Below, in pieces: positions 6,725 through 24,036 of a stretch of DNA of 30,547 nucleotides. This stretch comes from a virus: IMG/VR virus record IMGVR_UViG_3300025151_000015, positions 1-30,547 of that record; one strand, written 5' to 3'. Both the position numbers and the translations under genes were made by a program. The notes under the pieces were generated by a model. It was not told the DNA's origin, ran no database searches, and was given only the letters and a program-made list of their open reading frames with translations. The stretch's first letter is position 1. Each line of letters begins with the position of its first letter.

Positions 6725-6752
6725 TATATATCGAAATAATAACGCTATTTTG
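6725..6752 (-). promoter_or_regulatory. Phage late promoter P5 (upstream of 6721)
   Basis: On the minus strand CAAAA (6752-6748) is followed by 14 nt and CGATATATA (6733-6725), ending 3 nt before the ATG at 6721. The same spacing occurs at four other late units. It lies directly downstream of a terminator, so it restarts transcription into the portal-fibre unit. Confidence 0.7.
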
Positions 6753-6761
6753 TATACATAT

Positions 6762-6791
6762 AAAAAAAAAAGGGTCAATAAGACCCCTTTT
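6762..6791 (-). terminator. Rho-independent terminator after the tail tube gene
   Basis: The minus strand shows GGGGTC, loop TTATT, GACCC and then ten T. A-T and G-T pairs extend the base of the stem. It ends the capsid/tube unit about 10 nt before late promoter P5. Confidence 0.75.
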
Positions 6792-6814
6792 CTTACATTT
6801 AAAGTATACTACTA

Positions 6815-7357
6815 CTATCCGTTATTTGGAGTTGCAGGCGTAATTTGTGTAGCACTTGCATTGCCAGTCACGTCAGTTGAATCTGCTAAGAAAGCAGGTG
6901 CTGAGATTTCTTGTGCTGTCAATGTAATTGAGAAGGATGACGCATCCGCCATACCTGCCCCAGTACTAAATGTACCGCCAGTTACCTCGCATCCGTGCTC
7001 ACGTCCTAATAAGAAGAAGTTACCGTTATAGTCTTCAACTACTACTTGAGGTCTTCCTAAAGCAATAATTTTTAACTCTTCTTGCGTAGCACTATCTAAT
7101 AACTGTAGTGTCATATTTAAGTTAGTTTCAAAGAAAGTCGTACCGTTTTCTCTTGAACTGTTTACTGTAGTTTCCATTGAAGAATTACCTTTTAAATCAT
7201 ATTGGTAAAAAGTTGGTGTTCCTCCTATATCTACTTTTTCAGCGTCAGTTGAGTTATCAGTAACAGTTAATCCATAGTCAGCAAAATATACTGTCTTAAG
7301 ACCACCTACTGAAGACTTACAAGGTATCGCTCTTCCTGTTGTTAGTGTACAAGCCAT
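6815..7357 (-). CDS. Major tail tube protein (probable)
   Basis: This 180-aa beta-rich protein is encoded directly after the major capsid protein. It begins MACTLTTGRAIPCKSSVGG, contains ETNLNMTLQLLDSATQEEL mid-protein, and ends in a Thr/Ala/Pro-rich tail. Size, composition and place fit the abundant tube subunit of long-tailed phages, which stacks around the tape measure. Proteins with this N-terminus are common beside the capsid gene in Bacteroidota phages (recalled, not searched). It is separated from the capsid gene by a strong hairpin, so its expression may depend on read-through. An alternative is a head decoration protein. Confidence 0.6.
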   Translation of the reverse strand: MACTLTTGRAIPCKSSVGGLKTVYFADYGLTVTDNSTDAEKVDIGGTPTFYQYDLKGNSSMETTVNSSRENGTTFFETNLNMTLQLLDSATQEELKIIALGRPQVVVEDYNGNFFLLGREHGCEVTGGTFSTGAGMADASSFSITLTAQEISAPAFLADSTDVTGNASATQITPATPNNG

Positions 7358-7373
7358 ATTTATTCTTTTTTAT

Positions 7374-7409
7374 AAAAAAAGGTAGATAGGTTTGACCCCC
7401 ACCTACCTT
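7374..7409 (-). terminator. Strong hairpin terminator between capsid and tail tube genes
   Basis: On the minus strand AAGGTAGGTGGG pairs with CCTATCTACCTT (12 bp, including two G-U pairs) around loop GGTCAAA, followed by seven T. It probably trims or limits transcription after the highly expressed capsid gene. Confidence 0.8.
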
Positions 7410-7434
7410 CTTTTTAGTTAAACTTATTTATTTA

Positions 7435-8376
7435 TTATGCTAGAGTCAATAAAGCAAGGTCTGAACCAATACCATACTGAACACCTGCACTAAATCTCAT
7501 AATTACTCTTACGTTTTGAGACCCGTCTAAGTCACCCATATCTAATAACTTAACTTCGTTATGGTCAGATAAAAGACCAGTACCAAAGAATAAGTTAGAT
7601 TTTTGACCTGCTACGATATGGTCTGAAGGCATACCTGAAGCTAATACTACTTCGATACCGTCAAACGATAAAGCGTTTCCTTCATTATACCATAGAGCAC
7701 CTCTGTTATCAACACCTGCAGCACCAACACCACCTGAAGCATAACCTCCTAAGTGTCTGATGTAAGACTGCCAAGCAGCTTTAGGTACATAAATTTTTAA
7801 GTCTTCTTTTCCGTATACTGCAGAAGGTAACGCATCTACTACGTTCTCTAATAAAGTAACAATGTTTGAAGAAGTAAATTCAGTATTCGAACCGTTGTCT
7901 GCATCGTTAACGTCTGAGTCTGCAGCCATTAATACTGTAAATCCGTCAAATTCTCCTGCGTTAGCGTTCACACCACCCCAGATATTTTGCTCAGTTTTTT
8001 CCGCTACTAATCCTGCAACGTGTCCGATAATAAAGTCAGAAAACTTTGGAGGTAAGTTTTGGTTTAGAAATGAATAACCCATTTCAATCGCTTCCCAGTC
8101 AGAAACGAAGTCTTTTTTACAAAGCTCAATGTTTACCATAAACTCTTCAGGTTGAAGGACTCTCTCTGTAAGAGTTATTGTAGAACCGTCACTAAATGAG
8201 CAATCAGCATTAGCAATTACGCTAGTAGCTGATACTTTCTTAATAACGTCTTTGTATTTTACATTTGGCTTAATTTCGATTAAACCTTTGTCTAACGTAG
8301 GCGAAGATAAAAGGGCAGCAGATATATACTTCCCTGAAAATTCTCCTGCATACGTACTTGTAATTGTAGTCGCCAT
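7435..8376 (-). CDS. Major capsid protein (HK97-fold)
   Basis: This 313-aa protein follows the scaffold gene and protease, the usual order for capsid assembly. It starts MATTITSTYAGEFSGKYISA, with no long N-terminal delta domain, in line with a separate scaffold gene. The middle part (FSDFIIGHVAGLVAEKTEQN, then a loop with WGGVNANAGEFDGF) looks like the spine helix and A-domain of HK97-type capsid proteins of flavophages. The C-terminus (FSAGVQYGIGSDLALLTLA) is a typical closing beta segment. It should be the most abundant virion protein. Transcription comes from promoter P4 through the scaffold gene. Identification is from order and overall pattern. Confidence 0.85.
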   Translation of the reverse strand: MATTITSTYAGEFSGKYISAALLSSPTLDKGLIEIKPNVKYKDVIKKVSATSVIANADCSFSDGSTITLTERVLQPEEFMVNIELCKKDFVSDWEAIEMGYSFLNQNLPPKFSDFIIGHVAGLVAEKTEQNIWGGVNANAGEFDGFTVLMAADSDVNDADNGSNTEFTSSNIVTLLENVVDALPSAVYGKEDLKIYVPKAAWQSYIRHLGGYASGGVGAAGVDNRGALWYNEGNALSFDGIEVVLASGMPSDHIVAGQKSNLFFGTGLLSDHNEVKLLDMGDLDGSQNVRVIMRFSAGVQYGIGSDLALLTLA

Positions 8377-8395
8377 AATTAATTATATTTATTTT

Positions 8396-9013
8396 TTATT
8401 TAAAGTTTGTAATTCTTTCTAATACTCGGTCTCTTGTAGTCATCGCTCTATTTTGTGCGTACAAGTAACCTTCTTTATTTGTTTCCCCTTCTGGGTTATG
8501 TTTGATAGGTTCTGCAGCAGGTTGTGATAACTCTTCTTTTACTGCTTCCTCTACCGCTTCTTGCTCAGATAACATTGTAGTCATCGCAAGTCCGATTTCT
8601 TCTGCTGTCTCTTGGTCTTTTAACTCAAGCTTCGCTTTTAAATCATCAATAATAGCTTTAAGCTCTGCAACTTCGTCCTTAGATGCGTATACTTCTTCGC
8701 TTAATTCTTCTTCTTGAGTAGCTTCTTCTTCTACAACTTCTTCGTTGTCTTCTTCTACTTCTTCAGCGTCTTTAATCTCAGAAATAACACCTTCGTTAAC
8801 GACAAGTACTTTTCCGTCTTCAAGAGAATACTCTCCAGAAGGTACAGGTACTTTTTCGTCTTCAGTTACAATAAATACTTCGCTATCTTTTTCAAATGAT
8901 TCTGCTTCTAATACAGTACCATTTTCTAATTTCATTTGCTCTAATTTAACTTCTTCTTGAAGCTCAACTCCTAGCAAATCTTTTACTTTAGTTAACATTT
9001 CTGTAGCTTTCAT
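8396..9013 (-). CDS. Capsid scaffold protein
   Basis: The product has 205 aa and is extremely acidic, with Glu/Asp runs around residues 80-110 and a predicted coiled coil around 110-145 (KDEVAELKAIIDDLKAKLEL). It has a short basic C-terminal stretch, NRAMTTRDRVLERITNFK. This design, acidic helical body with a C-terminal capsid-binding end, is typical of scaffolding proteins that line the procapsid and are removed by the protease. It lies between the protease gene and the capsid gene. The ATG at 9013 is set by late promoter element P4, which ends 3 nt upstream, so the message is probably leaderless. No other start in frame competes. Confidence 0.8.
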   Translation of the reverse strand: MKATEMLTKVKDLLGVELQEEVKLEQMKLENGTVLEAESFEKDSEVFIVTEDEKVPVPSGEYSLEDGKVLVVNEGVISEIKDAEEVEEDNEEVVEEEATQEEELSEEVYASKDEVAELKAIIDDLKAKLELKDQETAEEIGLAMTTMLSEQEAVEEAVKEELSQPAAEPIKHNPEGETNKEGYLYAQNRAMTTRDRVLERITNFK

Positions 9014-9016
9014 ATA

Positions 9017-9044
9017 TATATATCGTTTAGGGTTAATTTTTTTG
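9017..9044 (-). promoter_or_regulatory. Phage late promoter P4 (upstream of scaffold/capsid)
   Basis: The minus strand shows TGCAAAA (CAAAA at 9044-9040), 14 nt, then CGATATATA (9025-9017) and three bases before the ATG at 9013. It matches P3 even in the TG before CAAAA. It drives scaffold and capsid. Confidence 0.75.
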
Positions 9045-9049
9045 CATTT

Positions 9050-9214
9050 TTAAGTACGATAAATACTACCAATACCCTGAGCCCTCAGAGACCCATCGCA
9101 GCATTTAATCGAGTATGTATTTTCTTCCCAACATAGACAAGCTCTTCTACCTCCTTTAGGACTAGAGTAGCTAGGTATGTAATTTTTACGTGATACGTTT
9201 CTATTCCAGTTCAT
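9050..9214 (-). CDS. Conserved-looking 54-aa Cys-rich protein
   Basis: This short gene starts one base after the protease stop and ends inside the P4 promoter region. The product begins MNWNRNVSRKNYIPSYSS and has CLC near residue 26-28 and a CC pair at 38-39, followed by DGSLRAQGIG. The two Cys pairs could form a small metal site. I recall similar short proteins with a CC-DGS-AQGIG end next to head genes in Bacteroidota phages, which supports a real gene. The function is unknown; a head-assembly role is suggested by position only. It shares the P3 transcript with the protease. Confidence 0.65.
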   Translation of the reverse strand: MNWNRNVSRKNYIPSYSSPKGGRRACLCWEENTYSIKCCDGSLRAQGIGSIYRT

Positions 9215-9215
9215 A

Positions 9216-10334
9216 TTAATAAGAAGGTATATGGTCTTGGCAAGGCATATACCAAATTTTATTGTCTAGTTCGTGTTCGTGTACGCCTTCACATCCTAAG
9301 TCTTCCGCTATTTTTAAAGCCATATCTTTATTAGAATAAGCAAGCCTATCCATAATTATAGCATAGTCATCGTTTACTGTCATTGTTGATAATTCTATTT
9401 CTCCTAATTCTTTTAGTTTTGATTCACTCCAACGCTTAGCAGCTAGACCACCCCACAAATAGAACGATATTGTCCCACATTTAGAGTTGTCGCTAGGGTC
9501 AAAGTATTCTTCTGCTCTTGATAAATAAGAGTACATTCTTTTTATTGTTTCTTTACTGACAGGACGACCTGCTGCGAGAGTGGCTGCACGAATTTTTCCC
9601 ACGTCAGTAGCACATTTATTATTGACTTTTTTGTTAAGCTCAATACCTTTTTTAGCATTATTCTTAACTCCGCTAGGGTAGTCACTATAAGACTCCATTA
9701 TCATTTTTTTTCCGTTCTTATATCTTTTGTCGTTTCTTATAATACCCTTTACTTGCGATAATAATTCTTCTGCTTCTTCTTCTTCTATTTGCTCAAAGTC
9801 ATTTATCTGCTCTTTAGGTCTCTCCATTTTGTCTGCAAAATATCCTTCTATACTAAAACCTTTTACTTTGCCAGTCTTTACGTACTCATTCCATATGTCT
9901 TCATTATTTACTTTTACCGCACCCATCCAAGTACCTACTGGTAAATCCATATCGTATTTACGACTCTTATCGTGTACTTCGTCTTCTATAATCCACGATT
10001 CTACTAAAGACAATCCTTGTATAGAGTGCTGATGCTCTAAAGTCGAATTATTTTGGTTGCCTTTTTGCAAATAAAGTTGGGAAGCTTTTAAGACCGTGTC
10101 CTTAGAGAAGTATATATAATATTCATCTTCTCCGTTCCTTCTGTAAATAGGTTTGTTAGGTATTAGTAAAGCCCCCAGTAGTATACGCTTCTCGTTATCT
10201 ACTTCAGCTAGTTTTATTTCTTGATTTTTTAGAGCTACAAAGTCTTCTTCTATAGCAGGATTTTCTACTATACTTATCGCTTCAATTCCTGATATTTCCT
10301 GCTCTTCGTCTAAAATTAATTCAACTATTCTCAT
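9216..10334 (-). CDS. Prohead serine protease (XkdF-like) with C-terminal domain
   Basis: The 372-aa product begins MRIVELILDEEQEISGIEAI, the usual start of XkdF-type phage proteases. The putative catalytic His is in LEHQHS (about residue 100) and the Ser in KGFSIEGYF (about residue 162). These enzymes digest scaffold and capsid ends during head maturation. From about residue 210 there is a second domain (YPSGVKNNAKKGIELNKK, CATDVGKIRAATLAAGRP, CGTISFYLWGG) that many phages fuse to portal or protease proteins; its role is not settled. The start is fixed by promoter P3, ending 3 nt upstream. It is followed directly by the 54-aa gene, then scaffold and capsid. Confidence 0.85.
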   Translation of the reverse strand: MRIVELILDEEQEISGIEAISIVENPAIEEDFVALKNQEIKLAEVDNEKRILLGALLIPNKPIYRRNGEDEYYIYFSKDTVLKASQLYLQKGNQNNSTLEHQHSIQGLSLVESWIIEDEVHDKSRKYDMDLPVGTWMGAVKVNNEDIWNEYVKTGKVKGFSIEGYFADKMERPKEQINDFEQIEEEEAEELLSQVKGIIRNDKRYKNGKKMIMESYSDYPSGVKNNAKKGIELNKKVNNKCATDVGKIRAATLAAGRPVSKETIKRMYSYLSRAEEYFDPSDNSKCGTISFYLWGGLAAKRWSESKLKELGEIELSTMTVNDDYAIIMDRLAYSNKDMALKIAEDLGCEGVHEHELDNKIWYMPCQDHIPSY

Positions 10335-10337
10335 ATT

Positions 10338-10365
10338 TATATATCGTATTTTATTTTATGTTTTG
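10338..10365 (-). promoter_or_regulatory. Phage late promoter P3 (upstream of protease)
   Basis: CAAAA (10365-10361), 14 nt, CGATATATA (10346-10338), then AAT and the ATG at 10334, all on the minus strand. It lies in the 34-nt gap after the tape measure stop. Confidence 0.75.
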
Positions 10366-10368
10366 CAT

Positions 10369-12087
10369 TTATCCTATTGCTGCACCTTGTACTATGTTTC
10401 TGTCTAACTCCTGTGCTGTAGAAACATCGCCAGAAACTACAAAAGCTTTTACTGGTTGCTCTTGCTGTCCTGCTATTGCTGTAGCTAATTGATTCGCTCC
10501 TGAAGCACCTACTACGTTAAATGCAGGCGGTGCAGAAGGTGTCGCTGCAGCTCCTCCTGTACTAATTCCTGCAGCTCCTGCAGAAGCAGCCATAGGTTGT
10601 ACTGAGTTTATTTGTTTTACAGTTTTTAAACCTGTAGCTAATACAGTTGCAATATTTGCTATTCTTGCTATAGTAGCTATAGGCTCAGGTAGTACTGATT
10701 TACTAGCTAAGACTTCTGTAACACCTTGATAGGTATTTATAAGAGCCTGACCTGTAGCAAAAGCCTTACCTGCTTTACTTGATTCTCCTAAAAGCCCTGC
10801 TATAGCACCAAAGGTGTTTGATACCATATTTATTTTAGCCTTTTCTACTGCTTCCTTTCTTGCTAATTCTTGTTTGTCTTCTTCTTCTTTTGTCTTATTT
10901 ATTTCGTCTCTTCTTTTTTGGTCTATATCGTCAAATTCTTTTTGCTTTGCTTCTCTTGCTACTCTTTGTGCTTCTTCTAACTCTGCAGTTGCAATATCGT
11001 TTAGTTTTGCTTTTTCTATAAGAGCTGTATAATGCTCATCTATTTTTGTTAATTCTAAAGCTCTTTTATCTGCTTCGCTTACTGCTTCTGCGTCTCTAAT
11101 TTGTTTCTTTAAATCTGCTAAAGCTTTTATTCTAGTTTCTTCTTCTTTTGCTGCGGCATCGTCTGCAGCTTTTTTCTCTGCTTCTATTCTCTTACGCTCA
11201 GTTTCTTCTTCTCTTAACGCTGTAGTCATTTCTGCAGTTAAAGCTTTTTGTTTTTTTAGCCTTGCTGTCTCAAGCTCTGTTAACCTAGCTTTTAATCTTG
11301 CTTCTTCGTCTAGGTCTTCTTTTGTAGATTTACTTAAAGCATTTTCTTGCTGCTTAGTTTCAAATCTAATTCTTGCAGCTTCTATTTCTTGGTTAGTTAT
11401 TTCTTCTTCAATTCTACCTGCTTCTTTAATTGCTGCTATCCTGTCTTGTATAGATACGTTTTCTTTATCTGCAGCTTGCTCTCTTAATTCTGCTACCTTT
11501 CTATTTGCTTCTGCTCTCGCTGTAATTAACGCTCTCTCTTGTTTATCTGCTTTAGCACGCATATCGGCTAGTTCGCCTGCTATTTCTATTTCTTTACGTG
11601 TCTCTTCTCCAAAGTTTTTAATACTATCTATTGCAGCATCTACTGAAGCTTTTGCTTCTTTAAAATTACCGCTAAATACATTTATAATAGCCATACCAAA
11701 GTCTGCTAAAATATCTGTTACGTTTCCTATAACAGTTTGTATCTGTAAGAAAAATTTAGCAAACTTATTTTGACCTTCTTCAGAAGACTTAAAGGCTGTA
11801 GTAACTGCTCCTATAGCCAATACTAAAGCACCAATACCAGAAGCTAAAATAGCAACCCTTAAAGATTTAAAGCTTTTAATTGTACTACCTATACTTGTTC
11901 TAAACTGTTTAAACCTAGACAAAGCACCTCCAGTCATTTTATCTAAGCCTTGATTTACTTCGCCAGTACTCTTCTTAAGCTTTTTATTTTCCTGCTCAAT
12001 CTTAGTATACTCTTTTTTAAACTCGTTTAGGTTATATACGGCTTCTTTGTATTTTAACTCTAAGTCTACTGTTATTTTCTTTGCCAT
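10369..12087 (-). CDS. Tail tape measure protein
   Basis: This 572-aa protein has an N-terminal coiled coil (residues 20-45), a hydrophobic segment near 75-100 (SLRVAILASGIGALVLAIGA), and a very long Lys/Glu/Ala-rich coiled coil from about 165 to 420. A second hydrophobic and Ala/Gly-rich part runs from about 430 to 530. This is the standard build of a tape measure, which sets tail length and is ejected with the DNA. At roughly 1.5 angstrom per residue it would specify a tail of about 85 nm (inference). It follows two tail-tip genes and a 48-aa gene that overlaps its start by 16 nt. The size is small for the family, matching the compact genome. Confidence 0.9.
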   Translation of the reverse strand: MAKKITVDLELKYKEAVYNLNEFKKEYTKIEQENKKLKKSTGEVNQGLDKMTGGALSRFKQFRTSIGSTIKSFKSLRVAILASGIGALVLAIGAVTTAFKSSEEGQNKFAKFFLQIQTVIGNVTDILADFGMAIINVFSGNFKEAKASVDAAIDSIKNFGEETRKEIEIAGELADMRAKADKQERALITARAEANRKVAELREQAADKENVSIQDRIAAIKEAGRIEEEITNQEIEAARIRFETKQQENALSKSTKEDLDEEARLKARLTELETARLKKQKALTAEMTTALREEETERKRIEAEKKAADDAAAKEEETRIKALADLKKQIRDAEAVSEADKRALELTKIDEHYTALIEKAKLNDIATAELEEAQRVAREAKQKEFDDIDQKRRDEINKTKEEEDKQELARKEAVEKAKINMVSNTFGAIAGLLGESSKAGKAFATGQALINTYQGVTEVLASKSVLPEPIATIARIANIATVLATGLKTVKQINSVQPMAASAGAAGISTGGAAATPSAPPAFNVVGASGANQLATAIAGQQEQPVKAFVVSGDVSTAQELDRNIVQGAAIG

Positions 12088-12218
12088 TTTACTTCGTTTT
12101 TAATTTGTTTTATACCTTCTCCAAAATTTTCAGGTAGCTTGTACTTACCTTTAGCGATTCTTATTCGCTCTGTTTCTCCGTCTGCTATCTGTAATAATTC
12201 TAATATGTTTTGTAACAT
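12072..12218 (-). CDS. 48-aa protein coupled to the tape measure gene
   Basis: The short frame starts at an ATG that overlaps the stop of the upstream tail gene as TAATG, and it runs 16 nt into the tape measure gene. The product starts MLQNILELLQIADGETERIR and is charged and probably helical. Tight overlaps on both sides suggest a real, translationally coupled gene. I do not recognise the family. A small tail-assembly factor is possible from its place before the tape measure. The frame fills an otherwise unexplained gap of 130 nt. Confidence 0.6.
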   Translation of the reverse strand: MLQNILELLQIADGETERIRIAKGKYKLPENFGEGIKQIKNEVKWQRK

Positions 12219-16630: not shown

Positions 16631-17363
16631 CTTAATTTAGTTTTTAATTGTTTCGATTCCGCTTCTGCTTTGTCTTTCATAAATGCTAAAAAGTTTAGAC
16701 ATTGGTGCACGTTTAATTTAGTGATATGTTCAAACCTTCTAATATTCCCTTGAGCGAGTGCGTAAATCGATGAATACCAACCCCACTTTGCTCCAAACTG
16801 TCCCGCAGGGCTATAGTCTTGTCCTCCTCCTGCTCCAAATAACTCGTCATAACTTGAGACAAGTCGATTCCTAAACGGTAAAAAAAAAGCATACTACTTA
16901 GTACCGCATCCATTGGCATATTTTTCATTTTCTCTTGGTCTTTAGCCTCATAGTCTTGTATAAGATATTTATGCTTTAGCTTTTGTTTTATAGGTCTGTA
17001 TAGTACAGCCATTGCTAAATGCATATTTTGCCAGTCAGACAAATGAGTATCTAAGTCTATATATTCTCCTAAGCTCATATCGTCTAGGTTCGGTATAAAG
17101 CCATATTCCACACCGTCCATAATAAACCTTTGTACTAGCTTAGGTTTTTGCTCAAACATCTCTCCTAGTATTGCTGTAATTCTATACACGTCTGTAGCCT
17201 TCATTTTAAAAGCATCTTTAAGGTCTAAGCCGCAGAAAACTTCAATCATTTTAGAAGCCAGAAACGTATCGTCACTATTATTCTCTTGTATCTTTAAATA
17301 CTTTTGATACTGGTGCAGCTTGACTTCAGACAGGTCTGTAGGTATCTCTAGTTTAACTCTCAT
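16627..17363 (-). CDS. Tail assembly chaperone, -1 frameshift long form (gpGT-like)
   Basis: After the T9 run at 16880-16888 the -1 frame stays open for 84 more codons and ends at 16627, so the fused product would be about 245 aa. The -1 frame segment reads like a conserved protein: a glycine loop FGAGGGQDYSPAGQFG, then KWGWYSSIYALAQGN, then a helical end with VHQCLNFLAFMKDKAEAE. I recall a KWGWY-Y-LA pattern from the T-part of tail chaperones in Bacteroidota phages. It ends by overlapping the next ATG (ATGA), which fits an expressed frame. The slip itself is inferred from the slippery T run, the open -1 frame and the known lambda gpG/gpGT mechanism. Confidence 0.75.
16713..17363 (-). CDS. 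Tail assembly chaperone, short form (gpG-like)
   Basis: This is a 216-aa helical protein. I choose the ATG at 17363 (MRVKLEIPTDLSEVKLHQYQ) because late promoter P2 ends 3 nt before it; the open frame further upstream crosses a terminator and is not credible. Residue 158-163 is coded by CTT followed by seven more T in a T9 run (16888-16880), where a -1 slip leads to the long form. The short form ends at 16713. Chaperones of this type bind the tape measure and guide tail polymerisation, and they are usually not part of the finished virion. It heads the tail transcription unit. Confidence 0.8.
   Translation of the reverse strand: MRVKLEIPTDLSEVKLHQYQKYLKIQENNSDDTFLASKMIEVFCGLDLKDAFKMKATDVYRITAILGEMFEQKPKLVQRFIMDGVEYGFIPNLDDMSLGEYIDLDTHLSDWQNMHLAMAVLYRPIKQKLKHKYLIQDYEAKDQEKMKNMPMDAVLSSMLFFYRLGIDLSQVMTSYLEQEEDKTIALRDSLEQSGVGIHRFTHSLKGILEGLNISLN
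16880..16888 (-). other. Programmed -1 frameshift site (T9 slippery run)
   Basis: On the minus strand the zero frame reads CTT TTT TTT TAC. A slip of one base back gives TTT TTA CCG and opens the gpT-like frame. T-TTT-TTT fits the X-XXY-YYZ rule. A stem-loop just downstream was not examined in detail. Confidence 0.7.
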
Positions 17364-17366: not shown

Positions 17367-17393
17367 TATATATCGAAAATTAAAAGCGATTTT
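17367..17393 (-). promoter_or_regulatory. Phage late promoter P2 (upstream of tail chaperone)
   Basis: AAAA (17393-17390), 14 nt, CGATATATA (17375-17367), three bases and the ATG at 17363, on the minus strand. Here T replaces C before AAAA. A terminator lies 13 nt further upstream. Confidence 0.75.
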
Positions 17394-17481: not shown

Positions 17482-17589
17482 CTATACTAATTGAATGGAG
17501 AATATTAAAGTAAACAATATAGCACCGACATAAATAATTGTCTTTACAAACATATCGCTTAATATAATTTTTTCTATAATTTTTTTCAT
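17482..17589 (-). CDS. 35-aa single-pass membrane protein
   Basis: The short frame starts at an ATG that overlaps the upstream stop as ATGA. It encodes MKKIIEKIILSDMFVKTIIY followed by a hydrophobic stretch and ends in IQLV. A charged N-terminus followed by about 20 hydrophobic residues (about 15-34) predicts one membrane helix. It is the last gene of the host-promoter operon and precedes the terminator. The function is unknown; small membrane proteins of this kind can act in superinfection exclusion or lysis control, but nothing here decides it. Confidence 0.6.
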   Translation of the reverse strand: MKKIIEKIILSDMFVKTIIYVGAILFTLIFSIQLV

Positions 17590-17798
17590 AACATTTCTTC
17601 TAAGATTTGTGACTCCCATTGTCTAACAATATCGACCTCTAATATATCTAAAATATTAATATCGTCAATTAAAACTTCTGTAATTGTTACAGATGCTTCT
17701 TTAGGTGGCGTATACCAGTCTCCTTTACAACCTTCGTCTAAGACGTACTTTGCGTCAAACTCTAGGCTTTCGTATTGTACTGTAGTTGACCTAATCAT
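17586..17798 (-). CDS. Small acidic protein, function unknown
   Basis: The product has 70 aa from the ATG at 17798 (MIRSTTVQYESLEFDAKYVL), chosen because it overlaps the upstream stop as ATGA; a start four codons earlier is possible. It is acidic, with GCKGDWYTPPKEASVTITEV in the middle and a Ile/Leu/Asp-rich C-terminus. The central pattern (G-W-TPP) is common among small unknown phage proteins. It is the third gene of the 18312-17482 operon. Confidence 0.65.
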   Translation of the reverse strand: MIRSTTVQYESLEFDAKYVLDEGCKGDWYTPPKEASVTITEVLIDDINILDILEVDIVRQWESQILEEML

Positions 17799-18031
17799 AC
17801 TCGCTCCCATTTAATTTCTGATTCTACTATCTTACTACTACCATTTGTTTTAAATGTCTTGTAGATAGTCTCTGCTACGATATGACCGCTTCTAAGCGTT
17901 CTAAGCTCTTCCTGTGCTTCTTTAATCGTATCAAAGGTCTTACTGTTCTTGTACGTCTGTACCCAGTTTCTTTTGTGATTTAGATTAAGACCCTTACTGT
18001 TTTGGATTCTAAACTGTATTATATCTTTCAT
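17795..18031 (-). CDS. Small basic protein, function unknown
   Basis: This 78-aa protein (MKDIIQFRIQNSKGLNLNHK) is Lys/Thr-rich with a likely beta-hairpin then helix (KTFDTIKEAQEELRTLRSGH). The ATG follows a hairpin with a T run and an A-rich leader (AAAACAAAACAA), the kind of unstructured start region typical of Bacteroidota genes. I do not recognise it. It is the second gene of the host-promoter operon. Confidence 0.65.
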   Translation of the reverse strand: MKDIIQFRIQNSKGLNLNHKRNWVQTYKNSKTFDTIKEAQEELRTLRSGHIVAETIYKTFKTNGSSKIVESEIKWERV

Positions 18032-18044
18032 TTGTTTTGTTTTT

Positions 18045-18070
18045 AAAAAGGGAGGTTTTACCCTCCCCTT
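18045..18070 (-). terminator. Hairpin between the first two genes of the small operon
   Basis: Minus strand AAGGGGAGG, loop GTAAAA, CCTCCCTTTTT (six G-C/A-T pairs plus extensions). It may attenuate or process the transcript, since no new promoter is obvious before 18031. Confidence 0.65.
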
Positions 18071-18075
18071 GTGTT

Positions 18076-18312
18076 TTATTTTCTTAATATATCGTAGCTT
18101 ATTTCTTCTCTATATAATTTATAAAATTCGTTCTTTGCTTGTGATAAATTATCTTCATTAAAAGAAGTATAATATTTATCTTCTACATAAACTGAATATT
18201 CAAATTCTGTTGTTTCTTGTAATCTATTTTGAGCTACAACGCCTTGACCTTTTTTGTGTCTAATTAAGTCAGCTTTTAATCCTGACCAAGTTGATGTTAA
18301 AATTGTATTCAT
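18076..18312 (-). CDS. Small protein, first gene of host-promoter operon
   Basis: This 78-aa protein (MNTILTSTWSGLKADLIRHK) has a middle beta part (EFEYSVYVEDKYYTSF) and a helical end (NLSQAKNEFYKLYREE). A perfect Bacteroidota promoter lies 25-56 nt upstream, followed by an A-rich leader (AAAAAACAAAACATT). It should therefore be expressed by host RNA polymerase as soon as the DNA enters, although it lies inside the late region. The family is not recognised. A host-takeover or exclusion role is possible but unproven. Confidence 0.65.
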   Translation of the reverse strand: MNTILTSTWSGLKADLIRHKKGQGVVAQNRLQETTEFEYSVYVEDKYYTSFNEDNLSQAKNEFYKLYREEISYDILRK

Positions 18313-18337
18313 AATGTTTTGTTTTTTAAATTATACT

Positions 18338-18368: not shown

Positions 18369-18392
18369 TTTTAATAACTTTTTTTTGTATAT

Positions 18393-18425
18393 AAAAAAAC
18401 CCCACCCTAAAAAAGAATGAGGTTT
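18393..18425 (-). terminator. Terminator of the large RNA gene
   Basis: Minus strand AAACCTCA pairs with TGGGGTTT (8 bp, one G-U) around an A/T-rich loop, followed directly by more T (seven in a row). It closes the transcript started at about 18932. Confidence 0.75.
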
Positions 18426-18932
18426 AATCTTCAAAATTAATAAGTGAGGAGAAACATTAGGGGATATATTGTACTTCTATATCAAGAAAGCTGACACTTT
18501 CTAACACCTCCCAACTGTCAGGTTGGTTCTTTTTTTATTTCTTTATGGGAAACTTCTTCCCTTCCTTTGCTAATGTAAGTTGTCTTATTGTTTTATTTAA
18601 GCTATCGTACTTTTGACTATCGCATCAAGCGAGTAGGGCGTTCAGCCTACACCTTCTTAAAACCACGCTTCAAACTTTCAGGTTCTCTTTCAACCTGTTC
18701 CACACTCTTGTTGTTTAACCTCGTATAAATTTCACCGAGCAGCAATTTTCCTTATTAATTAAATACCTATTCCTCGTTTTTTACTAAACCTACATAAGTA
18801 GTGATTTTCATACTAGGAGGAAAGTGCATCTCTCTATCGTGCTTCTTTCAGTTTACCACACGCATTATAAAGTCCGTAACACTTATCGGTATTTTCAGTA
18901 TTTTAATGAACGTATGTAATTATCAATCAATT
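18393..18932 (-). ncRNA. Large structured RNA of unknown class, about 540 nt
   Basis: No convincing protein frame covers this stretch on either strand, yet it has its own perfect host promoter (18938-18969) and a terminator (18393-18425). Many local helices are visible on the minus strand: CCG-A-UAA/UUACGG (18889-18874), GAAAG/CUUUC (18849-18820), CUAC/GUAG (18801-18790), CAGGUU/AACCUG with a 7-nt loop (18697-18679), GUAGG/CCUAC (about 18650-18632), GGGAA/UUCCC (18561-18547), CCAAC/GUUGG (18526-18511) and AGAAAG/CUUUCU (18502-18485). The last two have fully complementary 6-nt loops. I see no tmRNA, RNase P or group I/II signature. Length and ornate folding recall the large phage RNAs GOLLD and ROOL, but I cannot confirm homology. 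It lies directly after TerL. Confidence 0.65.
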
Positions 18933-18937
18933 ACACT

Positions 18938-18969
18938 ACAAAGATATTATAAATTGTTAATAATCCAAA
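18938..18969 (-). promoter_or_regulatory. Host vegetative promoter of the large RNA
   Basis: Minus strand TTTG (18969-18966), exactly 19 nt, TATCTTTG (18946-18939). It is identical in both boxes and in spacing to the promoter at 18338-18368. The predicted start is about 18932-18934. Confidence 0.85.
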
Positions 18970-19010
18970 ACTTTTATAGTTTTTTTTTACTTTTTTTTTA
19001 TCTACCTCTG

Positions 19011-20177
19011 TTATTGTATAGTATATTTTCCTCTATTTGGATTCTCTAGTTGCATCATTAAAGCGTATCTAGCAGCATCTATGCAGTCAGGATGAGCACC
19101 AGTAGGCTTCTGTAGATTATTACCTTCTTTGTCTTTTGCCCATACATAACCTTGCAGCTCTCTAATTAGATTCTTAGACTTAGACGTTACATATATCTCG
19201 TTTTCGTTTATTAGGTTTATACCGTATATCACGCTATCTCGTCCCTTTGTTACGCCAGATATTCTATGCCCGTAAGCTCTTAAGGTAGCAATACTCTTAG
19301 GTTCTGCGGAGTCTGCGTAAATATGAGTTGTAATATTGTTGTCAGTTAAGAAGCGACTTATATCTCTATTTAGCATACCCTTTCTATAAAGTACCTCGTC
19401 AAATATATATGCTTCATTCCACTTGTAAAGAAAAATTAAACTTGAGGGGTCTACTGCATAACCAAAGTCAAGTCCTGCACAAAGTAACCTAGCTTCTTCA
19501 GGTACATTGTCTATAGGCTTCCAGTCAGGAATACAAACACCTTCTAAGCTTCCTATTTCTCCTAGACCGTATACCTTCCACCAATTAGCCCAGTAAGTAG
19601 ACGTCTTAGCTTTTATCTTAGCCTTCTCTATTTCTTTTACTATTGATTCTGGCAAGCTATCATTGTCTTTATATGTAAGTGTTATAAAGTCCGTATCTGG
19701 CTGTCCTATTAATTCTTTGTCTACCCAAAATAAACTGCTTGGGTTGTAGTCAAGCCATATCGTACCAGAGGTTCTTACAGATAGTTGTTGGAACGATTCA
19801 AAGTCTACGTTATTGCACTCGTTTATAAAGAGGTCTGTTCTACGTGCTCCACGTAAGCGGTCAGGTTGGTCGCTGCTAAAGAACTCAATATAACTACCTG
19901 TACTAAATTCGTATTTTAAGGTAGTCTTATTGAACTTTCTGTCATCGTACCTATTGGTCATCTTAAGTATGTTGAGAAAGTCTTTTAGAGCTCCTCTACG
20001 CAAGTGAGGGACTGTTTCAGCGACTACGCTTATTTCTTTGTAAGGATTTCTTATAGCATAGTCAATAAGTATCATAAGAATACCTATCGTTTTTCCCGCA
20101 GAACTACCGCCCCTTATAATTTTTATTCTGCTATCTAATTGTCTTAAACGCTTTACTGCTTTTGTCTGTGAAAACAT
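19011..20177 (-). CDS. terL: Terminase large subunit
   Basis: The 388-aa product is the DNA-packaging motor. Walker A is GGSSAGKT at residues 23-30 and Walker B is DLFINE at 115-120, with Glu120 as the catalytic carboxylate. The RNase H-like nuclease part has GLDFGY (Asp237), YADS (Asp289) and HPDCIDAARYAL (Asp364/Asp367), so all acidic metal ligands are present. It belongs to the Terminase_3/6-like group common in Bacteroidota phages. The length is a little short but complete. The ATG overlaps the TerS stop as TAATG. Transcription comes from late promoter P1. The DNA-end type cannot be decided from sequence, but the permuted assembly suggests headful packaging. Confidence 0.95.
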   Translation of the reverse strand: MFSQTKAVKRLRQLDSRIKIIRGGSSAGKTIGILMILIDYAIRNPYKEISVVAETVPHLRRGALKDFLNILKMTNRYDDRKFNKTTLKYEFSTGSYIEFFSSDQPDRLRGARRTDLFINECNNVDFESFQQLSVRTSGTIWLDYNPSSLFWVDKELIGQPDTDFITLTYKDNDSLPESIVKEIEKAKIKAKTSTYWANWWKVYGLGEIGSLEGVCIPDWKPIDNVPEEARLLCAGLDFGYAVDPSSLIFLYKWNEAYIFDEVLYRKGMLNRDISRFLTDNNITTHIYADSAEPKSIATLRAYGHRISGVTKGRDSVIYGINLINENEIYVTSKSKNLIRELQGYVWAKDKEGNNLQKPTGAHPDCIDAARYALMMQLENPNRGKYTIQ

Positions 20178-20425
20178 TAATCAATAAATAAAGGGACGTC
20201 TTCGTTTATATGTATGTCCTTTGTTTCTTTTGGCTTACCTGCTACATAGTTATAGTATAGCTGTACAAACTTAAAGTCGCCTTCTGCTAGTCCTGCTTTT
20301 AAAGCTTCAAATGCTAAAGGCTCTAAGGGTGTTAATTTCTCTATTAACTGTATCTCTTCTGCTTTAGGTTTACGTCCTGCACGCCCTTTAGTTGAATGTC
20401 CACCGTTGTTTTTTCTACCGTCCAT
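20177..20425 (-). CDS. terS: Terminase small subunit (very short)
   Basis: This 82-aa protein, MDGRKNNGGHSTKGRAGRKP, has a basic N-terminal region and a helical rest (PLEPLAFEALKAGLAEGDF, then FVQLYYNYVAGKPKETKD). The N-terminal GGHSTKGRAGRKPK and the AL-GD-KFVQLYYNY-GKPKE pattern are typical of the small TerS of Bacteroidota phages. It recognises phage DNA and recruits TerL. Most TerS proteins are 140-180 aa, so it lacks a full oligomerisation core or has a reduced one. Late promoter P1 lies upstream with a predicted leader of about 36 nt, the only late unit that is not leaderless. Confidence 0.8.
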   Translation of the reverse strand: MDGRKNNGGHSTKGRAGRKPKAEEIQLIEKLTPLEPLAFEALKAGLAEGDFKFVQLYYNYVAGKPKETKDIHINEDVPLFID

Positions 20426-20428
20426 AGA

Positions 20429-20455
20429 ATTAATAAAAATTAATTAATTAATTAT
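20429..20455. repeat. AT-only palindromic leader repeat before terS
   Basis: The stretch holds TTAATTAATTAATTA-type iterations between the predicted start of transcription (about 20461) and the terS ATG. It could be an operator, a pac-linked site or just an unstructured leader. No function is shown. Confidence 0.35.
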
Positions 20456-20464
20456 TTGTATATC

Positions 20465-20491
20465 TATATATCGAAAAATAAATTAAATTTT
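20465..20491 (-). promoter_or_regulatory. Phage late promoter P1 (packaging operon)
   Basis: Minus strand AAAA (20491-20488), 14 nt, CGATATATA (20473-20465). No ATG follows at the 3-nt distance. Because motif and spacing are kept even here, the element is a promoter and not a translation signal. Its AAAA overlaps the stop of the preceding gene. Confidence 0.7.
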
Positions 20492-20912
20492 AGTCCGTTG
20501 CTTCTAATTCTTTTTTTGCCATAGCGTCAATCATTATTGCTAACTCGTCTACGTCTTTGTTAGATATATAGTTTAGCTTAAGTTTTATGAGCTCTCTTTT
20601 CTCTTGATTATCGTAACTGTTTATGTCGTCACTTATAATGTTTAGCCAGTCAATAAGCTGCGGACTATAGTTTTTAAATATCTGAAAGTTCTTAATGCTG
20701 TGTATGACTGTAGCGTGATTCATATGCTTACCGTTCTTTATGTAGAAGTCTCTTATTTCGTGCAGCGTCATACCTTCATACTTCTTTAGTATAAATCCTA
20801 GTAAAGACCTTGCTTCTACATACTGCGTCTTTCTTGTATTTTCAAATACGTTTAGGTTTGCTAGTTTGCTTATTCTCTTTGCTATTTTTTTAGCTCTATT
20901 TACTTTTTTCAT
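20490..20912 (-). CDS. Stand-alone DnaA domain IV-like DNA-binding protein
   Basis: This 140-aa basic protein has, at residues 27-77, a helix-turn-helix with the DnaA C-terminal signature. YVEARSLLGFILKK is followed by GMTLHEIRDFY and then KHMNHATVIHSIKNF, which parallels the RDHTTVLHA motif of DnaA. There is no AAA+ ATPase domain. It is the last gene of the early block and couples to the nuclease before it (ATGA). It may bind the phage origin and recruit or block host replication, or act in packaging or regulation because terS follows. The fold call is good; the role is open. Confidence 0.75.
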   Translation of the reverse strand: MKKVNRAKKIAKRISKLANLNVFENTRKTQYVEARSLLGFILKKYEGMTLHEIRDFYIKNGKHMNHATVIHSIKNFQIFKNYSPQLIDWLNIISDDINSYDNQEKRELIKLKLNYISNKDVDELAIMIDAMAKKELEATD

Positions 20913-21679
20913 AATGTACCTGTAATTATATAATCGTCTAGGTCTGCACCATCGACAAAAAATGTTTTGTATATGTCTACTGCTTTTTTAGTTTGTTCTT
21001 CTCCGTCTTTATAAAAGTCTTCGCTACATTTAAATATACCTATGTCTAAACTTCCTTTGTCTACTACTAGAAATTGGAATTGTTTATAAGACACGCCAAA
21101 GAGTTGACAGTATATATAGCATTGTACGGAATATAAATACTTCTTAGCTGAATGATAAAAGTTCTTTATACCTCCTGACGTTGTTTTTAAATCTACTATA
21201 CCTTTACTGCTTAGTACATCTGCTTTGCCTCTAAATGGTAATCCGTATATGTCGCCTATTGCAGGTACTTCAAACTCGCAGTCAGTTATAAGTTGTAACG
21301 CCTGTTCGTTTCTGAATATTGCATCTGCTATTTTCTCTGCATTTTGTTTCTCAACTCTTGTATATACTTCTCCATACTTTGATAAAGCTTCTTTATACAT
21401 TTTAGTATTCTTACTTGCAACGTCTACAAATATTTGCTCTTGGAATTTGTCAGGTTCTAGTATAGCCATATGTATTAGCCTTCCGTCTCTTAAAGGTTGT
21501 GTTTCTTTGCTTCCGTACTCAGTTACAAAAGCATACTTTTTAGGACTGTCTAATAATAGTTTCAAAGAGCTGCTACTTAATGCTAGGTGTCCTAGCGTAC
21601 CATAGTAATAGCTGTCATCGTACATCTGCTTTAGTACGTCTTCCTTTTTATAATTCTTTTGGTCTAAGAGTTGTATCAT
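20909..21679 (-). CDS. PD-(D/E)XK exonuclease, RecE/DUF3799-like
   Basis: This 256-aa protein has the motifs of the RecB/Cas4-type nuclease core: GRLIHMAILEP (His70), FRGKADVL (Asp154), IVDLKTT (Asp163, Lys165) and a following YSVQCYIYCQL helix with the usual Gln. This pattern fits the DUF3799 group related to RecE exonuclease VIII, which makes 3' single strands for recombination. No annealing protein is obvious next to it, although the SSB-like protein lies in the same block. Its start overlaps the upstream gene by 32 nt. Confidence 0.8.
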   Translation of the reverse strand: MIQLLDQKNYKKEDVLKQMYDDSYYYGTLGHLALSSSSLKLLLDSPKKYAFVTEYGSKETQPLRDGRLIHMAILEPDKFQEQIFVDVASKNTKMYKEALSKYGEVYTRVEKQNAEKIADAIFRNEQALQLITDCEFEVPAIGDIYGLPFRGKADVLSSKGIVDLKTTSGGIKNFYHSAKKYLYSVQCYIYCQLFGVSYKQFQFLVVDKGSLDIGIFKCSEDFYKDGEEQTKKAVDIYKTFFVDGADLDDYIITGTL

Positions 21680-21938
21680 TTTTAAAAATTACTTCTTCTG
21701 CTACTCTTGCACGTTCAGCCCATTTTACTTTTTCATTATGTACATCGTCTTCCCTTGACTGTAGTATATGGTTTTCCGTTTCGAGTATGTTAGTATAAAT
21801 ATACATCTGGTTAATGTTTCCTATAAGGCTTAAGATTTGTTGTTTCTTTTTACCTTCTGCTTTCTCGTATGCTTCTTTTAAAAAGCCACCTATCATATTA
21901 AAGTTACATTCGTATACTTGTTTCTGTAGTATATTCAT
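21648..21938 (-). CDS. Small helical protein, function unknown
   Basis: This 96-aa protein starts at the ATG at 21938 (MNILQKQVYECNFNMIGGFL), which overlaps the stop of the membrane-protein gene as ATGA; an upstream extension in the same frame is not credible. It is Lys/Glu-rich, with one or two helices and a likely coiled coil around residues 50-85. It lies directly before the exonuclease gene and overlaps it. The family is not recognised; an accessory role to the nuclease is only suggested by the overlap. Confidence 0.65.
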   Translation of the reverse strand: MNILQKQVYECNFNMIGGFLKEAYEKAEGKKKQQILSLIGNINQMYIYTNILETENHILQSREDDVHNEKVKWAERARVAEEVIFKNDTTLRPKEL

Positions 21939-22069
21939 TGATTTAAAATTAAGGTTACGATAATAATTACTACAAATGCTATGACTGCAAGTTCTATAGT
22001 CTTGTAGCACTCCTCATTTTTTTTAGGGTTACGTCCTTGATTAGAACGATATTGTCTTTGTTTTTTCAT
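21935..22069 (-). CDS. 44-aa membrane protein
   Basis: This short gene encodes a basic N-terminus (MKKQRQYRSNQGRNPKKNEE) and a single hydrophobic helix of about residues 26-42 (IELAVIAFVVIIIVTLIL). It is coupled by ATGA to the following gene, which supports expression. The positive-inside rule puts the basic half in the cytoplasm. The function is unknown. Confidence 0.65.
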   Translation of the reverse strand: MKKQRQYRSNQGRNPKKNEECYKTIELAVIAFVVIIIVTLILNQ

Positions 22070-22073
22070 ATTA

Positions 22074-22427
22074 CTATTTATTATATGTTCTTATTTTTTC
22101 CCAACGATTAAAGTCAGACATATCTAGAAAATCTGTTTTAACTATATGTTTGTTATTTAGTTTTAGTATTTTATCTCTACTTATTTCAGCAACTTCGTTT
22201 TTCCATTTATTTACTATCGAGTCCCAGTCTAATTGCATATGACCGCTCATCTCATTTTGTTTTTCGTATATCTTAGAAGCAGCATTAAATAAAATATTTA
22301 TATAGCTATTGTTTAAAATTTCTCTGTCATCTTTTGATTCTACGTAAGAATTTAATTTGGTTTCGATACAGTCGATTAAAACCTTTAATTCATTTTTACT
22401 TAAATGTATATTATTTTTGTAACTCAT
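22074..22427 (-). CDS. Hypothetical early protein
   Basis: The product is 117 aa from the ATG at 22427 (MSYKNNIHLSKNELKVLIDC), preferred because a longer in-frame start would overlap the nuclease gene before it. It is mostly helical with a hydrophilic surface and shows no motif I recognise. The leader before it is A/T-only. It belongs to the early block between two nuclease genes. Confidence 0.6.
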   Translation of the reverse strand: MSYKNNIHLSKNELKVLIDCIETKLNSYVESKDDREILNNSYINILFNAASKIYEKQNEMSGHMQLDWDSIVNKWKNEVAEISRDKILKLNNKHIVKTDFLDMSDFNRWEKIRTYNK

Positions 22428-22455
22428 ATTAACAATTTTTAATAAATATATAAAA

Positions 22456-22869
22456 TTAATCTGGAATGACAAGAGAAGCCATATCTTCTGTAAGTAAGTA
22501 CACTTTCTTAAGTACTTTTTTCTTTGTCCAAAGCGTAGTGTCAGGACAGTAAAGTTCTTTGACTTTTGGCATCTCTAAATAATTTAGCCAATATAAATAA
22601 GTGCCTTTAGGGTCTGACACAAAGTACAGCTTTACTATCTCGCTGTCCATACTCATTAAGGCATCGTACTTATGCTTCTCTAACAGCTTGTCTGCATAGT
22701 ATTTATTTCTAAACTTCATCTCCATAACGCAGTCGTGTCCTTTAGGTGTTTTACCTTTAGCATCATAAAAGTCATATCCACCACCTGACCACTCTAGTTC
22801 CCATCCTGAAAATTCATTAAGAAACGTGACTACTGTTTTTTCAAATTTATGTATTCTTTCTATATCCAA
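22456..22869 (-). CDS. PD-(D/E)XK nuclease-like protein
   Basis: I place the start at the TTG at 22869 (reads DIERIHKFEKTVVTFLNEF), giving 137 aa. The longer open frame from 22977 would overlap the preceding gene by 131 nt and adds no motif. The core is LEWSGGGYDFYDAKGKT, then GHDCVMEMKFRNKYY, where Asp46, Glu50 and Lys52 form a D-(x)3-E-M-K nuclease motif. The Asp-Ala-Lys-Gly-Lys-Thr loop is typical of a group of small phage nucleases. It may process branched or host DNA. Confidence 0.65.
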   Translation of the reverse strand: MDIERIHKFEKTVVTFLNEFSGWELEWSGGGYDFYDAKGKTPKGHDCVMEMKFRNKYYADKLLEKHKYDALMSMDSEIVKLYFVSDPKGTYLYWLNYLEMPKVKELYCPDTTLWTKKKVLKKVYLLTEDMASLVIPD

Positions 22870-23086
22870 GCTCGTACAGTTCGTTAATTTGTTTAATCCA
22901 TTGATTCCATTGTTTAGGACTGCAACCGCAAGGCAAATAAAATTTATGAGCAAAGTACTTAGCGTGTATTGTAGCAATAAGCTCTTGTTCCTTTTTGGTT
23001 ATCTTGTTGTTTTGTACAGACCTAAATTCAGTCCATTTATTATATTCTTCTTTATTTAGTTTTTGTTCCATCTCTTGTGATTCCAT
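22847..23086 (-). CDS. Small protein with CGC motif
   Basis: This 79-aa product has a start at 23086, or at an internal Met five codons later (23071). Both overlap the upstream gene. The sequence is charged and helical, with the C-terminal pattern YLPCGCSPKQWNQWIKQINE, in which Cys-Gly-Cys sits before a Trp-rich helix. I recall similar CxC-SPK-x-W ends in small proteins of flavophages. The function is unknown. Confidence 0.6.
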   Translation of the reverse strand: MESQEMEQKLNKEEYNKWTEFRSVQNNKITKKEQELIATIHAKYFAHKFYLPCGCSPKQWNQWIKQINELYELGYRKNT

Positions 23087-23219
23087 TTAGATAGTTTTTA
23101 CGTTTTTCACACCCGCAATCTTCATAGCCAAGTTTATTAGCTACCCAAGTTGCTATTGCTTTACCTTTACCAAAGGTTATAATATTAATTATTTTTTCTA
23201 ATTTATCTCCTAGTTTCAT
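23052..23219 (-). CDS. 55-aa protein with C-terminal CGC motif
   Basis: The start at 23219 (MKLGDKLEKIINIITFGKGK) overlaps the upstream stop as ATGA, so the longer frame is rejected. The C-terminal half has LGYEDCGCEKRKNYLN; Cys-Gly-Cys followed by KR and LN recurs in small phage proteins I recall. The next gene product also has a Cys-Gly-Cys, so the two neighbours may act together (inference). Confidence 0.6.
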   Translation of the reverse strand: MKLGDKLEKIINIITFGKGKAIATWVANKLGYEDCGCEKRKNYLNGITRDGTKTK

Positions 23220-23563
23220 AATATTTCTTTTATTGGTATACAAATACCTTTACTTGTATTATTATCTCCTCCTCTTTTATCATACTCTGTCCCTATATAT
23301 TTTCTACATATTTCCTTTAGCTTGTTTGTTGTAATTAAAACTATTTGGTTTTTTGTAAGTACAAAAGCATACCATTCGCTTTCTGTCTTTGCAATACCGC
23401 TAGGCTTGTTTCTCGATTCATACTCTATATATATATTGCCAGTATCTTTATATTTAAAATCTGTCTTAACTTCAATTTTTTTATTAGACAAAACCTGACT
23501 TAAATATTTCTCGCCTAATTGTCCTAACTCTAAGTCGTATTTAAAATCGCTGTTAAAATTCAT
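23216..23563 (-). CDS. PD-(D/E)XK endonuclease-like protein
   Basis: The 115-aa product has DLELGQLGEKYLSQVL, then IEVKTDFKYKDTGNIYIEYE, then SRNKPSGIAKT. A Glu-rich first helix, a K-T-D strand and a TGN-IE strand with an adjacent Ser-Gly motif mark a group of small phage nucleases (Holliday-junction or VRR-type relatives). Likely metal ligands are Glu17, Asp35 and Glu47. It lies directly after the sigma-like gene, overlapping it by 4 nt. It may resolve branched DNA before packaging; substrate not shown. Confidence 0.65.
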   Translation of the reverse strand: MNFNSDFKYDLELGQLGEKYLSQVLSNKKIEVKTDFKYKDTGNIYIEYESRNKPSGIAKTESEWYAFVLTKNQIVLITTNKLKEICRKYIGTEYDKRGGDNNTSKGICIPIKEIL

Positions 23564-24036
23564 ACATACTGTTTTAATTTTTCTTTTACTTTCTTGTATG
23601 TATTATATAGAGAGTAGTAGCTTATATTACTCTTCCTAGATAACTCGCTTATGTTTGTGCCGCTATCTATAATATCATATACTTTTTTATCGTACCAGTA
23701 CATAGTTTCTAATATGCTTTGTATCTTCTCATATACTTCGATATAATTTGTATGGTCATACTCGCTTATCTCTATGCCTTCTAGTTCTATTAATTTTACT
23801 TTTGCTTTTTTTCTTATTAGGTCTATATGAAGACCTCTCAGTATTTTGTAACAGTAGTAATAATTAATATCGTCTTTGTAATTAAAGTCTATACCTTTTT
23901 GAGTGTTTTTAATTAGTATTACATACATCTCCTGACACAGGTCTTCTGCTTCAGTATCTTTTATGCCTCCAAAGCTTTTAACTATGCCTAGCCATTTATC
24001 GTGTCTCTTGTATGCTTTTTCTACTGGCGTAATCAA
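23560..24036 (-). CDS. ECF-like sigma factor (predicted late-gene sigma)
   Basis: This 158-aa protein starts at a TTG that overlaps the helicase stop (TTGA). Residues about 28-80 match sigma region 2: AEDLCQEMYVILIKN is the DLxQExF-type core-binding helix, and YYYCYKILRGLHIDLIRKK parallels the W-x-I-A-x-N-x-x-I-D-x-x-R helix that reads the -10 element. Residues about 110-158 fit region 4: YDIIDSGTNISELSRKSNIS, then a recognition helix SYYSLYNTYKKVKEKL. There is no region 1 or 3, as in ECF factors. It probably directs host RNA polymerase to the AAAA-N14-CGATATATA promoters of the late genes (inference). Expression is early and coupled to the helicase gene. Confidence 0.8.
   Translation of the reverse strand: MITPVEKAYKRHDKWLGIVKSFGGIKDTEAEDLCQEMYVILIKNTQKGIDFNYKDDINYYYCYKILRGLHIDLIRKKAKVKLIELEGIEISEYDHTNYIEVYEKIQSILETMYWYDKKVYDIIDSGTNISELSRKSNISYYSLYNTYKKVKEKLKQYV

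Follow-up and report, generated by a model that had tools for sequence, protein, structure and literature searches.

An extracytoplasmic function-like sigma factor and a candidate late promoter element that change together in a group of putative marine Bacteroidota phages

Which protein brings the late genes of the virus IMGVR_UViG_3300025151_000015 into expression, and through which promoters? The window analysed here is the whole stretch of 30,547 nucleotides of that IMG/VR record; within it, five late units on the minus strand are preceded by the element CGATATATA, with an A tract at a fixed distance upstream, and the early block encodes a protein (23560-24036) that resembles extracytoplasmic function (ECF) sigma factors. 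Our analysis indicates that this phage sigma factor very probably directs the host RNA polymerase to the late genes. The conclusion is carried by a comparison of relatives, in which promoter and phage sigma change together across independent lineages; the pairing of the two had been proposed in an earlier note on this DNA, and the joint changes of residues and promoters support it.

The late promoter element and its conservation

CGATATATA occurs five times in the window, always on the minus strand (6725-6733, 9017-9025, 10338-10346, 17367-17375 and 20465-20473), against a mean of 0.35 copies in dinucleotide shuffles, none of 100 of which gave as many as five. AAAA stands exactly 14 nt upstream in all five copies; it begins at 2.1% of minus-strand positions, which puts the chance of five out of five at about 4e-9, assuming independence, and a reversed control pattern of AAAA-N14-CGATATATA had no match in the window. 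The number, strand and spacing of the copies are thus as the earlier note had described them. Its five unit starts need one correction: at 17363, 10334, 9013 and 6721 the C of the element lies exactly 12 nt before the ATG, and 20425 is the start codon of the terminase small-subunit gene terS, 48 nt from the C of its element, the promoter itself lying at 20465-20491.

All five promoters read on the minus strand and are conserved in relatives. P1 (20465-20491), of the form AAAA-N14-CGATATATA, precedes terS with a predicted +1 at A20461 and a leader of about 36 nt. P2 (17367-17393), P3 (10338-10364) and P4 (9017-9043) precede a tail-chaperone-like, a protease-like and a scaffold-like gene, respectively, and P5 (6725-6751) precedes the gene at 6347-6721. 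With the C taken as position -12, the +1 of these last four (A17363, A10334, A9013 and A6721) would be the A of the ATG, so that leaderless late mRNAs are predicted in four units, and the late messages are probably of this kind.

The relatives examined are 159 IMG/VR loci retrieved through similarity to the sigma or the terminase, a redundant set with at most the best 80 from each scan. The motif is found in them upstream of the same genes; 162 copies of CGATATATA share the strand of the sigma or terminase gene that gave the match, and three lie on the opposite strand. Loci whose sigma is at least 59% identical to that of the window, and in which the late genes are covered, carry AAAA-N14-CGATATATA. 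Where the sigma is 37-55% identical, this element is missing, and the same gene starts have an A tract and then CGTTATA in front of them. The CGTTATA loci include contigs with a terminase 80-82% identical to the window's, and the reverse case is locus L006, with a terminase of 37% and a sigma of 71% identity, whose promoters are still CGATATATA. We refer to the two forms as classes A and T; class A has AAAAT as its -35 consensus and class T has AAA(A). Motif class coincides with sigma clade in 44 of 44 contigs, and the class label changes once on the sigma tree, twice on the terminase tree and twice on the chaperone tree. Across whole genomes the two forms exclude each other at the position where the C lies 12 nt before an ATG, save for one stray CGATATA in genome G024, which was dismissed as an intragenic site lacking a -35.

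The placement of the element raises the question of whether it might be a translation-initiation signal, lying before start codons in a host group that does not use Shine-Dalgarno sequences. A single fixed distance to the ATG would suit such a signal: it is seen at four of the five window sites and, in 15 class-A genomes, at 57 of the 78 sites that have a -35 (on the reverse strand, at none). Yet the terS copy is among the best conserved although its ATG is 48 nt off, most relatives have no start codon at 12 nt from the terS element, and a -35-like A tract is present at a fixed position. The element also varies with residues of the sigma factor, which would not be expected of a ribosomal signal, and we consider this explanation very improbable.

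The sigma factor

The open reading frame lies where the earlier note had placed an ECF-like sigma factor, and the protein matches sigma profiles and ECF folds. It has 158 residues and a TTG start, with Gly at residue 68 and Asp at residue 72, and divides into sigma2 (about 1-79), a linker (80-97) and sigma4 (98-158). Sigma70_r2 matches with an E value of 2.5e-4 and 21.2 bits (Pfam cut-off 24), and the sigma70-ECF profile TIGR02937 with an E value of 5.6e-9 over residues 26-157 and 35.8 bits (cut-off 42.9); all 34 aligned members of the family match TIGR02937, the best at 6e-13. In the AlphaFold2 model (predicted local distance difference test score 83) two helical domains, 4-79 and 98-157, flank a low-confidence linker, 80-97.

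Whole-chain structure comparison with VIA-align returned ECF sigma chains as the best matches, with Z up to 9.8; a Z of about 9-10 is moderate for helical proteins and was weighed jointly with the profile match and the gene context. Owing to a different placement of the domains, the whole-chain root-mean-square deviation (rmsd) is large. Taken singly, residues 96-158 superpose on region 4 of E. coli sigmaE bound to -35 DNA (2h27) with an rmsd of 1.7 A over 63 residues, and residues 1-81 on Bartonella RpoE with 2.5 A over 76 residues. ECF sigma factors are defined by the presence of sigma2 and sigma4 only, with a linker shorter than about 50 residues (PMC8103513), and the model and the TIGR02937 match give this layout for the window protein. 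By profile and modelled fold, then, the predicted product of 23560-24036 is a two-domain ECF-type sigma factor.

A tblastn search with the window sigma against 50,697 phage records gave no match at an E value of 0.1, and a class-T sigma gave one marginal match only. Among the relatives, the sigma gene was found in 35 of 40 records searched, and the five that lack it, at 18.6-23.7 kb, fall short of the length of a complete genome in the group. L242 and L259 belong to a single 47.7-kb contig, which has two distinct sigma genes of the family; L070 is an 89-kb contig of about three times the usual genome length; these contigs are either assembly joins or real larger genomes. At locus L284, sigma region 2.4 is disrupted (TLKNSYYIYSEKN), yet CGTTATATA stands before the chaperone gene.

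Joint change of sigma residues and promoter bases

Sigma residues were compared with promoter bases in a set anchored on gene starts, the upstream regions of homologues of four late genes (259 sites in 161 contigs). Among unique upstreams, Gly and Asp at residues 68 and 72 go with CGAT at positions -12 to -9 in 44 of 45 cases, Ser and Asp with CGTT in 51 of 64, Thr and Asp with CGTT in 11 of 12, and Gly and Asn with TTAT in 9 of 9. Pooled by residue 68, Gly goes with A at -10 in 53 of 54 unique upstreams (44 CGAT and 9 TTAT), and Ser or Thr with CGTT in 62 of 76. Among unique sites in register, the third letter of the -10 (A:T) divides 53:0 for Gly68 and 0:62 for Ser or Thr68; a Fisher p value for this split takes no account of the relatedness of the contigs and is no measure of how strong the evidence is.

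The tree of 83 sigmas shows three changes of residue 68 and three of base -10, located at the same places. The three joint changes persist when columns 40, 44, 68 and 72 are removed before building the sigma tree, and a single origin of Gly68, with all Gly68 sigmas held together, is rejected (p-AU 0.005). Judged from these sequences, the most telling case is the nested clade L267/L273/L274/L276/L279: its chaperone promoter differs from that of the neighbour L283 at two of 32 nt, one of them base -10, and its terS promoter likewise carries A at -10. Sigma columns 40, 44 and 68 split the classes without error; positions 40 and 44 may also be involved, their effects being inseparable from that of 68 in this analysis.

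HMMER alignments to solved ECF chains, Mycobacterium tuberculosis SigE and SigR, set window residue 68 at the N88 position of sigma-H and residue 72 at the N92 position; SigR we take to be near-identical to sigma-H in the region aligned with these two residues. The open complex of sigma-H has G-11 T-10 T-9 as its -10 element: N88 bonds T-10, N92 contacts the G-11 pair, W81 and I85 form a pocket and a loop takes the flipped T-9. The authors of that work suggest a possible role of the N88 position in setting specificity at -10 (PMC6411747). T-9 is constant in all three of our promoter classes (CGAT, CGTT and TTAT), and all 34 aligned sigmas have N58 in the loop.

Sigma and promoters might also have been inherited together, the covariation reflecting shared ancestry with no functional link, and it is true that the contigs are related and that the switches number only three. 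Against this, several promoters per genome switch jointly, and more switches are needed on the terminase and chaperone trees than on the sigma tree. The columns of nine other, co-inherited genes, about 1,640 including those of the DnaA-like protein described next, do not follow the classes, none of them splitting the two motif forms, and the sigma column that does follow corresponds to the residue with a known role in reading that base (PMC6411747). We see very little probability in common descent as the whole explanation.

Another DNA-binding protein of the phage could instead read the element as an operator or activator site. The obvious candidate has a helix-turn-helix resembling the DnaA C-terminal domain (20490-20912, minus strand), and its gene adjoins the late region and is present in nearly all relatives. 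None of its 137 alignment columns splits the A and T classes (the best makes five errors), as against three in the sigma, and the geometry of the element is that of a -35 and a -10 with +1 at the start codon; such a reader is highly unlikely. A host ECF or primary sigma factor, with the phage sigma serving some other role, is the least probable of the alternatives. Bacteroidota genomes are rich in ECF sigma factors, and host RNA polymerase is required either way, but the motif follows the sigma that the phage itself encodes, and does so in three independent lineages, among them a contig whose terminase is distant.

We therefore return to the phage sigma factor as the reader of the element. Encoded in the early/replication block, it would, once made, bind the host core RNA polymerase and steer it to AAAA(T)-N13/14-CGATATATA before the five late units, that is packaging, tail, protease, scaffold/capsid and portal/fibre, which would be transcribed late, with RNA 5' ends at the predicted +1 positions. 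Sigma4 would read the A-rich -35 and sigma2 the -10. By reference to sigma-H, D72 would correspond to the G-11 reader, residue 68 to the -10 reader and the N58 loop to the T-9 reader, and loss of the side chain at 68 could plausibly make room for a purine. With some reserve, we lean towards a fuller reading: -10 specificity would have changed repeatedly through one pocket residue, with all late promoters rewritten each time and with +1 on the start codon, giving leaderless structural mRNAs. Gly68 would then read A-10, and Ser, Thr or Asn68 T-10, and the change of Asp72 to Asn would go with that of G-11 to T.

Several observations weigh against this account. Both profile scores of the window sigma lie under the curated Pfam and TIGR02937 cut-offs. 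The -35 reads AAAAT where typical ECF promoters have AAC, and its distance from the -10 seems slightly short. Fourteen of the 76 Ser/Thr upstreams are out of register or without the element. Only three independent switches are available, and the independent-pairs sign test cannot reach 0.05 because there are too few such pairs. An hhalign alignment to a single E. coli sigmaE sequence covered part of sigma2 only and left a gap at the helix of residue 68; the match of residue 68 to N88 is based on the HMMER alignments, which were preferred. Finally, the motif scan of the window placed no late promoter upstream of the sigma gene itself (24036), and no anti-sigma was recognised, no dedicated search for one having been made.

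Gene timing in the abundant phages of Bacteroidota is little described, and the present case provides an early-to-late switch open to testing, in a marine group that is widespread and has a cultured cousin, P12024L on Nonlabens. It also supplies more than 80 natural sigma/promoter pairs with single residues and bases changing together, which should help in learning how ECF factors choose promoters, and it illustrates how a regulator can shift its specificity while all its target sites follow. Leaderless late mRNAs, if real, could explain the placement of the start codons and aid genome annotation; if the reading as a whole is true, these phages amount to a natural experiment on how a promoter code evolves.

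Genome setting and known systems

A 99-bp direct terminal repeat (window 1-99 = 30449-30547) indicates that the record is a circularly closed whole genome, with a large fibre gene spanning the cut (2-4009 and 29478-30545). All late units lie on the minus strand. P1 would drive the terS/terL unit (20425-19011), in which terL matches the PHROG terminase large subunit. The tail-chaperone-like gene (16713-17363) heads the P2 unit, with tail genes downstream to 10369; the head maturation protease-like gene (9216-10334) forms the P3 unit. In the P4 unit the scaffold-like gene (8396-9013) is followed by 7435-8376 (probable capsid) and 6815-7357, and in the P5 unit the small gene 6347-6721 is followed by the portal gene (4575-6350), 4070-4570 and the fibre gene. 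The names capsid, scaffold and chaperone are putative, given on weak PHROG matches and gene order. The DnaA-like protein is encoded by the last gene before the late region; its match to Bac_DnaA_C (E value 2e-4) is below the cut-off. The host is likely to be a marine member of the Bacteroidota, because Nonlabens phages share the portal, protease and other genes. A scan of 84,980 bacterial and archaeal genomes with the sigma alignment gave 109 pattern matches, none of them a relative, and therefore no prophage or host was identified that way.

Intrinsic-terminator-like hairpins on the minus strand stand directly upstream of P2 (17412-17433) and P5 (6764-6794), and may insulate some late units from read-through; the scanned stretch holds 11 such hairpins against 6.5 expected. 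The terS leader (20426-20464), in the window and in relatives, has a conserved GATATACAA after the promoter and often a TTGATTAATC-like palindrome, which could form an RNA hairpin or be part of a packaging site. A scan for sigma-70-type promoters returned 88 hits against 66 in shuffles, mostly AT-rich noise. The contrasting host promoter of the earlier note, TTTG-N19-TAnnTTTG, proved weak: with a spacer of 17-21 it has two gene-strand sites and one other in the window, and 26 gene-strand against 44 other sites in 31 genomes including the window, which is no enrichment, and it was set aside. Two such TTTG-N17-21-TAnnTTTG sites (18368 and 18969) lie near small open reading frames at 17586-18312 that are rare in relatives and are possibly accessory genes.

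Phage T4 also uses a sigma-like protein, gp55, for its late promoters, which have a TATA-rich -10 and no -35 and need the sliding clamp; the window system has a fixed -35 and a sigma4 domain. With the ECF (group 4) factors such as M. tuberculosis sigma-H and E. coli sigmaE, the window sigma shares the restriction to sigma2 and sigma4, the short linker and, as predicted here, a -10 read as three bases (G-11 T-10 T-9 for sigma-H; PMC6411747). The ECF hallmark CGT (PMC8103513, PMC6411747) fits the CGTT of the sister Ser/Thr class, the window's own class having CGAT. Unlike typical ECF systems, the window group has AAAAT in place of the AAC hallmark, which is not a defining one, and the window sigma has Gly where Asn is usual and no late promoter before its own gene. 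A CGT-type -10, a cognate anti-sigma and positive autoregulation are likewise hallmarks of ECF factors that do not define them.

In phiEco32-like phages it is established that the virus encodes a sigma and has late promoters that belong to it (PMC4331800, PMC4281155), and the sigma of SU10 is listed as an 'ECF sigma factor' (PMC4281155). The claim of novelty in the earlier note has to be narrowed accordingly: we found no description of such a pairing for a Bacteroidota phage, which is weak evidence, as the literature searched was without most subscription journals. As with phiEco32 gp36 and the phage 7-11 sigma, which have middle/late promoters of their own with the motif tAATGTATAtA, 6-8 nt upstream of +1 (PMC4281155, PMC4331800), the phage sigma would lead the host polymerase to a small number of well-conserved sites ahead of late genes, and judged by sequence the window virus has the trait of the gp36 kind, in that it encodes a sigma whose own class of promoters precedes the structural genes. 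The phiEco32 group differs in consisting of enterobacterial podophages, with no tblastn match to the window sigma among the phage records searched, although close homology to gp36 does not define the kind; the window promoter is bipartite, with a fixed -35 and the start codon at the predicted +1, and the window virus has no recognised anti-host-sigma protein.

The only named relatives by portal similarity are P12024L and P12024S, Nonlabens phages of the genus Inhavirus. P12024L (L165) carries at 16409-18674 genes annotated as a 2OGFeDO oxygenase, a glucosyl-HMC transferase and a methyltransferase, probably for DNA base modification. In both phages gp35, annotated as Sigma-70 region 2, lies directly before the terminase genes, and CGTTA(AT) stands 12 nt ahead of late start codons. 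They are unlike the window virus in that gp35 is too diverged for a tblastn match from the window sigma and the -35 surroundings are different. In the cultured P12024L, CGTTA lies exactly 12 nt before six ATGs, with no such case on the reverse strand. The residue-68 position of its sigma is occupied by Asn, and its promoters have T as the third base, in keeping with the joint change of residue and base seen in the relatives of the window virus.

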